DNA of 64,000 bases, taken from Allobosea caraganae (GTDB lineage Bacteria; Pseudomonadota; Alphaproteobacteria; Rhizobiales; Beijerinckiaceae). This document shows positions 18,071 to 22,132 of this stretch, piece after piece. Numbering within the stretch: the first letter of the stretch is position 1; every line of letters starts with the position of its first letter. Location of the stretch: positions 124,001-188,000 of the forward strand of contig NZ_QQTO01000022.1 in the NCBI RefSeq assembly GCF_003351345.1, read 5' to 3'. The position numbers and the translations under genes are program-made. The notes under the pieces were generated by a model. The model worked only from the letters and a program-made list of their open reading frames with translations. It ran no database searches and was not told where the DNA came from.

Positions 18071-18694
18071 GGCATCAACTCGGCTTAAGGTGTTTCAACG
18101 CTCCGATCGCGGCGAATTCGCGGCCATGACTAGCGCCGCACGGCCGCTTGGACAAGTTTTGGGAACGCATAGGCCGGCTCAGGCGATGGCGGCCCTGCGC
18201 CCCATGCCTGTCCGGCTGACGCTATCGCATGACGGGGCCGCGCTGGAAGCCGGCAAGGCACCCCGTCCCCAGTATATCAGCCGCGCCTCCCGACCCGTCC
18301 CAAGCTGGCTCCGGCCGCTACGGAATTGTCCCAGCTTGATGCGTCGGCTTCCAAGCCTCTGAATCGGCCGTCGCCACCCGGCGCAAGAACAACTTAGGCG
18401 CGCACCCGATTTCGGACCGTTCATGTCGTTCCCCGGCCGTCGCGCGCAACTTTAATCAATCACGCGACGCAAGGTCATAAGCGTCAGATCGGCGGAACGG
18501 CGCTTGCCTTCGGCAGGCTGACGCAGTGCCTCGCATTTCATTTCCCTACGGCATGTTGGGATATGAGGCCGCGACGACCGCCTCCCGACCCCAATCGACA
18601 AACGTTAGCGAAATTAACCAATTCCGCGAGTTTGCATTTACAGTTCATTAACTTCACCTACCCTTACGGCATTCCGGGATACGGGGTTTGCGGC
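18071..18694. other. 620-base intergenic region before the RpfF-like gene
   Basis: I see no convincing gene here: the open frames on both strands lack ribosome sites and family features. Two imperfect direct copies of CCyTACGGCATnnnGGGATA (18544-18563 and 18662-18681, 16 of 20 identical) lie 118 bases apart just before the RpfF-like gene, with an AT-rich stretch between them (18600-18655, containing gaaattaacc and ttcattaactt) that suits a promoter. The divergent promoter of the murA block should also lie here. Confidence 0.5.
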
Positions 18695-19648
18695 ATGCTC
18701 CAGGCTTATGGCTCGAATACGCGACCGACTTCGGCGACCACGCTGGAATGCTGCGAAGTCATCGATGCGATCCGCTACAAGGCGGGCTTCCTGCCGGAAG
18801 TGCAGCTCGCCTACGAGGCTGAGATCAAGACGCTCTGGGTGACGATCAAGCCGGAGCTGAAGCCGGTCTTCACGCTGCAGTTGCTGGACAGCCTGGGCAA
18901 GATCCAGCGCGCGATCTTCGCGCTCTGGGGCGCGCCGGACCAATACCACACCGCGCCGGTGCGCTTTCTCGCCTTCCGCGGCACCGGCCCGTTCTTCACG
19001 CTCGGCGGCGACCTCGACTTCTACCTCGACTGCCTGGCCAAGAACGACCGCGCCGCCCTGGCCGAATATGCCCGGCTCTCGATCGAGGGCGCGGTCTGGA
19101 ACGCGAGCGGGCTCAACGGCCTGGTGATCACGCTCTCGACCATCCACGCCAAGGCGATCGGCGGCGGCATCGACGCGCCGCGCTCCTGCAACATCATGAT
19201 CGCCGAGGAGCAGGCCTCGTTCGTCTACCCCGAGATCAAGTTCAACCACTTCCCGATCACGGCGGTGGCGATCCTCTCGCGGCGGATGGGCGCGCGCGCC
19301 GCCGAGCGCATGCTCCTCTCCGGCGAGGAGATGAGCGCGGCCGAGTTCATGGAGGCCGGCGGGCTCGAGGCCGTCGTCCCGGCCGGAAGCGGCGACGACT
19401 GGATCCGCAAATACGCCGCCGACTCGCTGCCGGTCCACGCCGCCAAGACCGCGCTGTTCTCGGCCTTCAACCGCCGGGCCGGCGACCTGCGCGAGGAGCT
19501 GGCGCATCTCGGCCAGATCTGGACCGACTGCATGCTGCGCCTGAACCCGAGCGCGATCTCGAAGCTCCAGCGCATCGCCCAGACGCAGGACCGGATGCTG
19601 GCGCGGGTCTATCAGCGGCCGGCGACCGTGGCGCTGGCCGGCGTCTGA
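18695..19648 (+). CDS. RpfF-like crotonase (candidate DSF-family fatty-acid signal synthase)
   Basis: A crotonase-fold protein of 317 residues from the ATG at 18695; the frame is open 132 bases further up, but that part crosses the AT-rich promoter-like stretch. Segments FTLGGDLDFY (101-110), IHAKAIGGGID (150-160), MIAEEQASFVYPEIKFNHFP (168-187) and the closing LQRIAQTQDRM line up, from memory, with RpfF, which turns acyl-ACP into cis-2-unsaturated diffusible signal factors. Of the two RpfF catalytic glutamates (141 and 161 in Xanthomonas), the second is present (Glu180), but the first is Asp160 at the correct 20-residue spacing. The next gene encodes a PAS-GGDEF-EAL protein, matching the synthase/receptor pairing of RpfF-RpfR. 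A generic enoyl-CoA hydratase is the alternative. Confidence 0.72.
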   Translation: MLQAYGSNTRPTSATTLECCEVIDAIRYKAGFLPEVQLAYEAEIKTLWVTIKPELKPVFTLQLLDSLGKIQRAIFALWGAPDQYHTAPVRFLAFRGTGPFFTLGGDLDFYLDCLAKNDRAALAEYARLSIEGAVWNASGLNGLVITLSTIHAKAIGGGIDAPRSCNIMIAEEQASFVYPEIKFNHFPITAVAILSRRMGARAAERMLLSGEEMSAAEFMEAGGLEAVVPAGSGDDWIRKYAADSLPVHAAKTALFSAFNRRAGDLREELAHLGQIWTDCMLRLNPSAISKLQRIAQTQDRMLARVYQRPATVALAGV

Positions 19649-19670
19649 AGCACGGCCTGCGGTATCCCTT

Positions 19671-19695
19671 CGTGCAACCCTGACCCGGTTGCACG
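19671..19695. terminator. 9-base perfect hairpin between the RpfF-like and GGDEF-EAL genes
   Basis: CGTGCAACC and GGTTGCACG form a perfect 9-base stem with a 7-base loop, 23 bases after the stop codon. No T-run follows, so it may be an attenuator, an operator dyad or a weak terminator rather than a standard terminator. Confidence 0.4.
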
Positions 19696-19801
19696 CGTCC
19701 TCACGAAACATTTACCTGTCGTATCGTAAGGCTTTAGGTGGCGCGGAGTTCGGCGAGTCAATACGCCAGCGCCTCCCCATGGCCGCGCAAGGCAGGAATG
19801 G

Positions 19802-22132
19802 ATGGCGGGCGCTCTGAAAGGGCTTACAGACGGCGGCAGACCGGGCGAAATCCGCGAGGAGTTCGACCTGCCGGGCTACCGCCTGCTGGTCAGTTCGCTG
19901 TTCTCGTCGCCGGGCTCGATCATCCCCGGCGGCATCGCCGGCATCCTGACGCCCTATCTGTGCTGGCTTTCGTCCGGCATGACCATCTTCATGACGCTGA
20001 CCATCGTCGTGGCGGTGGTCGTGGCGCTGAGGATGATGACGGTCGTCACCTATCGCCGGCGCGAGCATGCGGATGACAGCTTCGCCGAGACGCGGCGCTG
20101 GGACCGGGAGTATTTCCTCGGCGCGACCGTGTTCAGCGCGGTGCTCGGCTATAGCTGCTACGTCGCCCTGACCCAGACCGACGACCCCGCGGCGCATATC
20201 ACCTCGGTCTCCTCGACCATCGCGCTCGCCTCGGGCTATGTCGCGCGCAATGCCGGCCGGCCGAAATTCGTGGCCGTGCAGTTGCTCACCTTCTGCGTGC
20301 CGATGGCCTTCGGGCTGATCCAGGCCCACAACGTCTACTACCAGTATATCGGCTATTTCGCCTTCCTCTACGTGCTGGCCAACATCGCCATCACCAACTC
20401 GCTGCACCGCAACCTGCTGGCGCTGAGCGATGCGACCAAGCAGTCCAAGGCGCTGGCCTCGGCCCTGCACTCGCAGAACCTGACGCTCGACGCCGCGCTG
20501 AACACCATGATCCACGGGCTGGCGATGTACGATTCCAGCCTGAAGCTCGCGGTCTGCAATGCACCGCACCGCACGCTCTACGGCATCCCCGACACGCTCG
20601 CCCTGCCGGGCACGCCGCTGACGGCGATCGCGCGCTTCCTGATCGAGCGCCAGGTGATCAGCCCCGACCAGGTGCGCGAGACCAGGCGGGTCCTGGCCGA
20701 GGTCCAGCAATCGCAGCAGGCGGCCAGCCGCGAGCTCCAGACCCGCGGCGGCAGGCTGCTCGTGGTCACCATCGCGCCGGCGGCCGAGGGCGGCGTGCTG
20801 ATGCTGACGGAGGACGCGACCGAGCGGAAGGCGACCGAGGCGCGCATCGAGCAGATGGCCCGCTTCGACGAGCTCACCGGCCTCGCCAATCGCTTCGAGT
20901 TCAACAACCGCCTGGCCGAGGCCTTCGACCGGCTGGAGCGGACGGGCGAGCCCTTCGCCCTGCTCTATATCGACCTCGACGGCTTCAAGCAGGTCAATGA
21001 CAGCCTCGGCCACGATATCGGCGACCGCGTCCTGGTCGAGACCGCGAGCCGGCTGCGCGGCGCCATTCGCGGCGGCGACCTGCTCGCTCGCTTCGGTGGC
21101 GACGAGTTCGTGCTGATCCTGCCCTCGGCGAGCCATAGCGTCGTCACCACGATCGCCCAGCGCATGATCGACGCGATGGGCAGTGCCTTCCAGCTCGACA
21201 CCAAGACCGTCTACGTCACCGCCAGCGTCGGCATCGCCATGGCGCCGCACGACGCCGCGACCCCGGCCGACCTGCTGCGCCATGCCGACACGGCGCTCTA
21301 CAAGGCCAAGGCTGCCGGGCGGAACACGCTGACCTTCTTCAACCCGGCCATGGCCGAGGAGGCGCTCGACCGGCACGAGATCGAGGTCGACCTGCGCATT
21401 GCCTGCGACGAGCGCTCGCTGGAGCTCTACTATCAGCCGATCATCGACCTGAAGACGCAGGAGATCGTGACCCGCGAGGCGCTGATGCGCTGGCGCCACC
21501 CGACGCGCGGCATGATCCCGCCCGGCGTCTTCATCCCGATCGCCGAGCAATCCGGCCTGATCGCCGCGATGGGCGACTGGGCGATCAAGCAGGCCTGCAA
21601 GGACGCCGCCACCTGGCCGAACGAGGTCGGCGTCTCCGTCAACATCTCGCCGCTGCAGTTCCGCGAGCCGCGCCGCATCGTCGAGACCGTCAAGGACGCG
21701 CTGATCACCTCCAACCTCGGCTCGCACCGGCTGACGCTCGAAGTGACGGAATCGCTCCTGATCGAGGACAACAAGGCGACGCTCGCCGTGATCCACGACC
21801 TGCGCGCGCTCGGCGTGAAGTTCGCGCTCGACGATTTCGGCACCGGCTATTCCTCGCTCGCCTATCTCTCGACCTACCCGTTCGCGCAGGTGAAGATCGA
21901 CCAGAGCTTCAGCCGCGACGTCCACGCCAACGAGGCCTCGAAGGCTATCATCGAGGCGGTCTGCCAGCTCGCCCGCCGCCTCTCGATGAACGTCGTGGTC
22001 GAAGGCATCGAGACCGAGTCGCAGCGCATCGCCGTGCAACTGCTCGGCGCGCACCGGGCGCAGGGCTATCTCTTCGGCCGGCCCGAGCCCCTGTCCAGCA
22101 TCACCTCGGACAAGGGGCGCCACGTCGCCTGA
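19802..22132 (+). CDS. Membrane PAS-GGDEF-EAL cyclic-di-GMP enzyme
   Basis: A 776-residue protein predicted to make and/or break cyclic-di-GMP. About residues 28-210 form six or so membrane helices. A PAS-like domain follows (LDAALNTMIHGLAMYDSSLK, about 225-330), then a GGDEF domain with intact GGDEF at 432-436 and a product-inhibition site RGGD five residues before it, and an EAL domain with EALMRW at 559 and DDFGTGYSSL, so both activities look intact. The PAS-GGDEF-EAL order is that of RpfR, the DSF receptor, but the RpfR N-terminal RpfF-binding domain is replaced by a membrane region. It follows the RpfF-like gene on the same strand after 153 bases. Confidence 0.9.
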   Translation: MAGALKGLTDGGRPGEIREEFDLPGYRLLVSSLFSSPGSIIPGGIAGILTPYLCWLSSGMTIFMTLTIVVAVVVALRMMTVVTYRRREHADDSFAETRRWDREYFLGATVFSAVLGYSCYVALTQTDDPAAHITSVSSTIALASGYVARNAGRPKFVAVQLLTFCVPMAFGLIQAHNVYYQYIGYFAFLYVLANIAITNSLHRNLLALSDATKQSKALASALHSQNLTLDAALNTMIHGLAMYDSSLKLAVCNAPHRTLYGIPDTLALPGTPLTAIARFLIERQVISPDQVRETRRVLAEVQQSQQAASRELQTRGGRLLVVTIAPAAEGGVLMLTEDATERKATEARIEQMARFDELTGLANRFEFNNRLAEAFDRLERTGEPFALLYIDLDGFKQVNDSLGHDIGDRVLVETASRLRGAIRGGDLLARFGGDEFVLILPSASHSVVTTIAQRMIDAMGSAFQLDTKTVYVTASVGIAMAPHDAATPADLLRHADTALYKAKAAGRNTLTFFNPAMAEEALDRHEIEVDLRIACDERSLELYYQPIIDLKTQEIVTREALMRWRHPTRGMIPPGVFIPIAEQSGLIAAMGDWAIKQACKDAATWPNEVGVSVNISPLQFREPRRIVETVKDALITSNLGSHRLTLEVTESLLIEDNKATLAVIHDLRALGVKFALDDFGTGYSSLAYLSTYPFAQVKIDQSFSRDVHANEASKAIIEAVCQLARRLSMNVVVEGIETESQRIAVQLLGAHRAQGYLFGRPEPLSSITSDKGRHVA

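Follow-up and report, generated by a model that had tools for sequence, protein, structure and literature searches.

To our knowledge, the characterised members of the RpfF superfamily of crotonases, those of Xanthomonas campestris pv. campestris (Xcc), Burkholderia and Cronobacter, all make diffusible signal factor (DSF) signals. The xanthomonad RpfF/RpfC/RpfG system combines such an enzyme with a multi-helix membrane sensor and acts via breakdown of cyclic dimeric guanosine monophosphate (cyclic-di-GMP), while in the Burkholderia DSF (BDSF) system of Burkholderia and Cronobacter the superfamily crotonase stands beside a PAS-GGDEF-EAL protein, RpfR, again with a cyclic-di-GMP output. Two core DSF pathways are described, through RpfC/RpfG or through soluble RpfR (PMC4504480), and, according to a 2022 review, the DSF receptor among cyclic-di-GMP enzymes is RpfR, whose system it places in Beta- and Gammaproteobacteria (PMC8846402). 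Here we analyse a stretch of 64,000 nucleotides from Allobosea caraganae (contig NZ_QQTO01000022.1, positions 124,001 to 188,000; hereafter the window), which carries a crotonase gene of this superfamily beside a gene for a membrane PAS-GGDEF-EAL protein, the partner (Table 1).

It is reasonably probable that this pair forms a module for DSF-like fatty-acid signalling, in which a membrane receptor acts on cyclic-di-GMP. The crotonase falls outside the hydratase clade and the two genes co-occur, so the locus is best read as a DSF-type system whose partner is a membrane PAS-GGDEF-EAL protein. In the mechanism that we infer, an active crotonase, diverged from its sisters the DSF synthases, would convert an acyl-thioester to a free fatty acid, unsaturated or modified in another way, that serves as the signal. 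The neighbouring membrane protein would sense this product, most likely by its membrane domain, and sensing would change the cyclic-di-GMP phosphodiesterase activity of the EAL domain, the output being mainly cyclic-di-GMP breakdown. If this is true, DSF-like signalling also exists in this order (Rhizobiales), where superfamily crotonases occur in 55 of 397 genomes at E <= 1e-20, and it has at least two architectures, in one of which the membrane receptor is itself the cyclic-di-GMP enzyme.

The locus departs from both described systems. RpfR is soluble and possesses an RpfF-binding FI domain and a BDSF-binding PAS_9 domain (PMC6361424, PMC4504480, PMC8846402), whereas membrane helices and PAS_7 occupy the corresponding part here; binding of BDSF by the PAS domain of RpfR is itself documented (PMC6361424). 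The GGDEF-EAL part of the partner also lies outside the RpfR-type clade, the two genes here run in the same direction and the active site of the crotonase is changed. Compared with RpfF/RpfC/RpfG, the pair contains no kinase, receiver or HD-GYP domain (Pfam detects no receiver in the partner), and the membrane domain gives an hhalign probability of 2% with the RpfC input domain (alignments of 33 and 36 rows). The idea that the former is a diverged version of the latter, prompted by a shared N-x-x-R, therefore found no support. RbdA of Pseudomonas has a membrane part and, like CdgB of Azospirillum (MHYT), combines it with GGDEF-EAL, as the partner does. RbdA is needed for dispersion induced by cis-2-decenoic acid, whose sensor is the kinase DspS and not RbdA (PMC10746223), and the CdgB gene neighbours a lysR gene and another, unknown one (PMC9683572). 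A pair of an RpfF relative and a membrane GGDEF-EAL protein, in general or in Bosea and its relatives, was not found described among titles and abstract beginnings of the open-licence papers listed, which is weak evidence of absence. The comparison suggests that the enzyme is altered and that the receptor is of a type absent from known DSF systems.

The pairing is conserved across many soil bacteria. A scan of genome contigs returned 51 loci from Bosea, Methylocystis, Methylovirgula, Enterovirga, Methylorubrum, Jiella and others, spanning 93% to 46% identity, and every one of them encodes, within 5 kb and on the same strand, a partner that has the membrane domain seen in the window. An earlier sequence-only reading of the window, which had proposed the pair, would have been contradicted by a lack of co-occurrence in relatives; both genes stand together in all 51. 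The partner is downstream in 47 loci and upstream in four (L073, L074, L075 and L079; loci are numbered L and genomes G), L073 and L074 having equal match statistics and possibly representing one organism. Within flanks of 1.5 kb, a GGDEF-EAL match accompanies the crotonase in 30/30 loci of the genus, as opposed to 0/16 ordinary crotonase loci of the genome. Chance neighbourhood is rejected on this control together with the 51 loci. The distances of crotonase and partner also agree (r = 0.89 for 28 chosen pairs, none of 2000 permutations as high), which speaks for the pair.

Beyond the closest relatives the arrangement varies. Upstream of the distant crotonases L110–L114, whose residue at the position of catalytic Glu141 in Xcc RpfF is Glu, a partner of this kind is encoded on the same strand, and beside other distant Glu141 crotonases the partner is convergent (e.g., L124, L142–L145 and L148) or directly downstream (L146, L149). 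Genome G134 has a convergent partner beside its crotonase; contig ends lie close to both the crotonase gene and a partner-type gene in G217. An acyl-CoA synthetase-like (rpfB-like) gene precedes the membrane protein and the crotonase in L110 (positions 5–1525) and L113 (98–2320) and resembles a gene near the crotonase in L188–L192. It has no match in L111, L112 and L114, so we do not regard it as part of the module. Two genomes of the genus, G024 and G009 (L150, L154–L157), encode four and three superfamily crotonases, some with their own membrane GGDEF-EAL protein within 5 kb and some without. In the Jiella locus L080 (approximately 5.7–11.7 kb), GGDEF-EAL genes lie on both sides of the crotonase, and only the downstream one has the membrane domain.

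Pfam alone assigns the crotonase to ECH_1. The best NCBIfam model is NF006452 (PRK08788; 173.2 bits, just below the cut-off of 177), whose name, 'crotonase/enoyl-CoA hydratase family protein', states no function; the RpfF model NF053515 comes second with 106.7 bits, its cut-off of 550 not being reached, and a third model gives 53.4. NF053515 is a narrow model, since crotonases adjoining RpfC and HD-GYP genes, at 356–370 bits, likewise remain below 550. The closest solved relatives by sequence are 7zq7, 3m6m, 5fus and 6dgn. With the predicted structure of the crotonase (mean predicted local distance difference test (pLDDT) score 86.8, predicted template modelling (pTM) score 0.85), the only protein to which fold searches were applied, the top 12 Foldseek matches are all RpfF/DfsA chains, headed by entries 5fus, 6dgn, 3m6n, 3m6m and 7zq7. 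VIA-align 2 gave the RpfF/DfsA entries Z 32.0–33.7 with root mean square deviation 1.8–2.1 over 261–269 aligned residues, and the best entry after them is a hydratase at Z 28.3.

A quick and a careful tree of 120 rows produced the same groups. The rows were drawn without L001–L030, L082–L109, 33 of L031–L070, L074, the fragment L078, the repeats L158–L163, L167, L168, L180 and L185, and identical sequences. A branch of 2.98, supported at 100/100, splits the 104 superfamily rows, including that of the window, from the 16 ordinary crotonases taken from the window's genome. Had the crotonase grouped with hydratases, the sequence-only reading would have failed; the split upholds it. The window crotonase belongs to a separate clade, the Asp clade, sampled with 18 rows and supported at 100/100 on a branch of 1.61. 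It lies outside both RpfF clades, the xanthomonad-type one and the RpfR-linked one, labels that rest on RpfF model score and gene neighbours. In the careful tree this clade leans to the L110–L114 crotonases (81/93) and to neither RpfF clade. The crotonase is a member of the RpfF superfamily with the same fold, and it is not in a clade of characterised RpfF. An ordinary enoyl-CoA hydratase is rejected on both trees and the fold ranking, and the possibility that such a hydratase merely adjoins a GGDEF-EAL gene by chance is very remote: it would account for the shared crotonase fold and the ECH_1 assignment and nothing more, and is contradicted also by a pairing that persists despite changed gene order and by the clean control. 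As a side observation, one locus of the genus (L027 in G016) has one in-frame TGA inside the crotonase match.

The active site sets the Asp clade apart from characterised enzymes. Glu141 and Glu161 form the catalytic pair of Xanthomonas RpfF (PMC9864630, PMC9040811), two such Glu residues separating hydratases from pure isomerases (PMC5834635), and Glycines 85/86 and 138 serve its oxyanion hole and thioesterase activity (PMC9040811). The glycines are retained in the window crotonase by alignment, as are the Glu161 equivalent and the conserved Trp258. At the Glu141 position, Asp of a GGGID motif is found in all 52 loci L031–L082 and in 30/30 of L001–L030, the loci of the genus, while Glu is kept in RpfF and in the compared relatives outside the clade. 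A second change affects the FPGMG motif of RpfF, whose Met170 lines the substrate pocket: NHFP[IV], one residue shorter, takes its place in 21/21 Asp-clade rows. FPGMG itself occurs in 0/18 Asp-clade rows and 77/86 other superfamily rows (YPGMG in one, neither in eight), being common rather than universal. In addition, a His stands at the Xcc Leu166 position, near the kept Glu161 equivalent. The sequence-only reading correctly brought the enzyme nearer to RpfF than to hydratases; its use of GGGID as an RpfF motif does not hold, as RpfF has GGGFE, the Glu of which is catalytic. The name 'RpfF-like' needs correction, the enzyme belonging to the superfamily and not to RpfF proper, given the Asp, the lost FPGMG and the low score with the RpfF model.

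The enzyme could plausibly make a cis-2 product like DSF; in view of the rebuilt pocket and of Asp throughout the clade, a different product would be about as likely. That the enzyme is a genuine DSF synthase, producing a cis-2-enoic acid in exactly the way of RpfF with Asp in place of Glu141, is a sub-case of the signalling reading rather than an addition to it, and we hold it as a tentative option. Superfamily position, fold, the Glu161 equivalent and the kept glycines agree with it, and the retention of Glu141 in compared relatives outside the clade and the loss of FPGMG speak against it. So does Pseudomonas DspI, where changing the first Glu (Glu126Ala) abolished swarming, Asp not being among the substitutions tried there (PMC5834635). 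Equally tentatively, the Asp clade may represent a new fatty-acid signal synthase with a product other than a cis-2-enoic acid, the Pfam-less membrane domain as receptor and a one-step route to cyclic-di-GMP. This proposal, based on the Asp, the His near the second Glu and the rebuilt pocket, would extend to Bosea, Methylocystis, Enterovirga, Jiella and relatives. With the same fold, a single Glu-to-Asp change and one lost pocket motif, the chemistry is directly testable.

The main rival explanation also starts from the altered site: the crotonase may be mainly a protein regulator which makes no signal and which, bound to the membrane protein, modulates the cyclic-di-GMP activity of the latter. 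Binding of RpfF to its receptors, both RpfR and the RpfC receiver, is established (PMC6361424, PMC9864630; complexes 3m6m and 6dgn), and the change of Glu141 and the absence of FPGMG across the clade, along with the tight co-inheritance of the two genes, would suit such a role. However, a dead scaffold would need less than what is retained here, namely the second Glu, the glycines of the oxyanion hole, Trp258 and an acidic residue at position 141; the partner has no receiver domain by Pfam, and membrane helices stand in the place of FI (for which there was no profile to search with). We regard a mainly regulatory crotonase as unlikely.

The signalling reading further depends on the partner. 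Its predicted model has six long helices N-terminal to PAS, and a hydropathy scan flags all of them except 129–150, which falls below threshold in what is a simple scan rather than a dedicated membrane predictor; the estimate of about six membrane helices made from sequence thus stands. Residues R77, G107, G116, R149-N150, R153-P154, Q160 and P167 of this domain are invariant in 23/23 rows, and no Pfam family, MHYT included, matches it above cut-off. In the EAL domain E559, N614, E647, D677, D678, K698, E734 and Q754 are invariant in all 18 aligned partners. Of these 18, 17 retain the GGDEF letters, and the RxxD inhibitory site, intact in the window partner, is not kept throughout its clade. 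The steady output is probably phosphodiesterase activity, because the EAL residues are invariant and the inhibitory site is not generally maintained. In the Methylovirgula partner at L072:9110–11053 no PAS is detected and the membrane domain is fused straight to GGDEF-EAL, with the crotonase still adjacent; this one case points to the membrane domain rather than PAS as the essential input, unlike in RpfR.

The order of domains and the intact motifs had been likened to RpfR, and within the window this is borne out by Pfam, the GGDEF and RxxD sites and the eight EAL positions, although the RxxD part does not extend to the whole clade. The accompanying idea of an RpfR whose FI domain was exchanged for a membrane part is an unlikely history, the GGDEF-EAL part not grouping with RpfR-type proteins and the PAS domain being PAS_7 and not PAS_9. 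In a quick tree with midpoint root, this part clusters with its counterparts from further membrane PAS-GGDEF-EAL proteins of the order, and five RpfR-type rows form one branch (support 100) on the opposite side; the RpfR-type label denotes a place beside a crotonase, and only L193 was scanned with Pfam (PAS_9). The partners of Asp-type crotonases make up one clade, joined by an orphan from genome G385.

Several observations weigh against a signalling module. DSF synthase chemistry cannot be assumed, because Glu141 is replaced clade-wide and FPGMG is gone. One Asp-type copy (L150) has no partner within 5 kb, and the G385 homologue, 39% identical and inside the partner clade, has no crotonase within 16 kb. 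Of 40 distant loci of the order examined within 5 kb, five have neither a partner-type protein nor an RpfC-type kinase as neighbour. The agreement between crotonase and partner distances would in part also come from shared genome descent. The membrane domain is widespread, being found in 117/397 genomes of the order; among these, 87 lack a crotonase match at E <= 1e-20, and as it is mostly found without the crotonase, it need not be a fatty-acid receptor. Crotonase adjacency was assessed for 45 membrane-domain matches (the 19 best and 26 weaker), among the matches listed. Among these, 17 of the 19 best adjoin a crotonase, a ranking that is circular because the search alignment A1 was built from members of the pair, and 0 of the 26 weaker ones, at 188 bits or less, do so. 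The domain was accordingly rejected as a marker exclusive to the pair. In L245–L255, L260–L275 and other loci, the Pfam-less membrane domain fronts both PAS-GGDEF-EAL proteins of approximately 780 aa and shorter ones of approximately 400 aa, in the latter of which a GGDEF part is matched in L272–L275.

This general occurrence of the membrane domain would fit a reading in which the crotonase is an enzyme of lipid metabolism, co-regulated with a GGDEF-EAL protein which senses the state of the membrane or its fatty acids, with no cell-to-cell signalling; the non-committal name of the nearest NCBIfam model is compatible with this as well. The DSF signals made by the characterised superfamily members known to us and the frequency of RpfC-type kinases beside related crotonases in the same order argue against it, and we consider a metabolic role improbable, somewhat more so than a regulatory one.

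The frequency of these kinases comes from 40 loci with long flanks among the 55 genomes of the order with a superfamily crotonase. Within 5 kb, an RpfC-type hybrid kinase is found in 22, a membrane PAS-GGDEF-EAL protein in 13 and neither in five; the other 15 genomes comprise three of the genus (80–100% identical, window type), G134, G217 and ten more. Pfam finds HisKA, HATPase, receiver and Hpt domains in the kinases of L115 and L121, the same set as in L188 with its xanthomonad-type RpfC, and the next gene encodes a receiver-PAS-GGDEF-EAL protein in these two loci and a receiver-HD-GYP protein in L203. The RpfC-type loci of the order thereby share with the window the crotonase superfamily and a module ending in GGDEF-EAL, and differ from it in passing the signal via a hybrid kinase and in a crotonase that keeps Glu141. 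Loci L115–L123, L126, L127, L129, L130, L133, L134, L136, L137, L139 and L141 all have RpfC-type systems convergent with a superfamily crotonase, in which a receiver-PAS/GGDEF-EAL match replaces the HD-GYP protein RpfG.

Within the genus, 34/37 genomes have a crotonase copy at 80–100% identity. The remaining three, and G413, have only a copy at 31–34%, with Glu at the catalytic position (L151–L153 and L117), adjoining an RpfC-type kinase and a receiver-GGDEF-EAL protein. One signalling module would seem to replace another of similar use within the genus, judging from these gene neighbourhoods, and such an apparent exchange offers a natural test of a shared job.

Table 1. Coordinates of the crotonase, its membrane partner and their parts in the window.
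Feature	Position	Strand	Basis
Crotonase, RpfF superfamily 'Asp clade', 317 aa	18695..19648	+	NCBIfam scores, trees, fold ranking
Asp160 codon (GGGID), position of catalytic Glu141 of Xcc RpfF (GGGFE)	19172..19174	+	alignment
Glu180 (= Xcc Glu161, kept) to His185 (= Xcc Leu166), then FP[IV] for FPGMG	19232..19249	+	alignments
Intergenic gap, 153 bp, both genes on same strand	19649..19801		ORF coordinates
Membrane PAS-GGDEF-EAL protein, 776 aa	19802..22132	+	Pfam, 18-partner alignment, model (mean pLDDT 84.4, pTM 0.39)
Membrane domain, approximately six helices (37–58, 61–86, 94–125, 129–150, 154–174, 178 onward)	19910..20416	+	model
PAS_7 domain	20498..20839	+	Pfam, 69.1 bits, cut-off 27
GGDEF domain, RGGDLLARFGGDEF	20861..21325	+	Pfam, 166.9 bits; motif and I-site
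EAL phosphodiesterase domain, catalytic residues intact	21389..22084	+	Pfam, 241.2 bits

The gene boundaries given by the sequence-only reading were confirmed. A scan of the gap by consensus returned nothing usable as a sigma-70-type promoter or a same-strand terminator, and a defence system was considered and dropped, PADLOC giving no match. The crotonase gene also has an alternative, longer open reading frame (ORF) starting at 18563. An in-frame stop is located 18 bp upstream of the position matching 18695 in L032, L033, L045 and L051, which makes 18695 the likely start.

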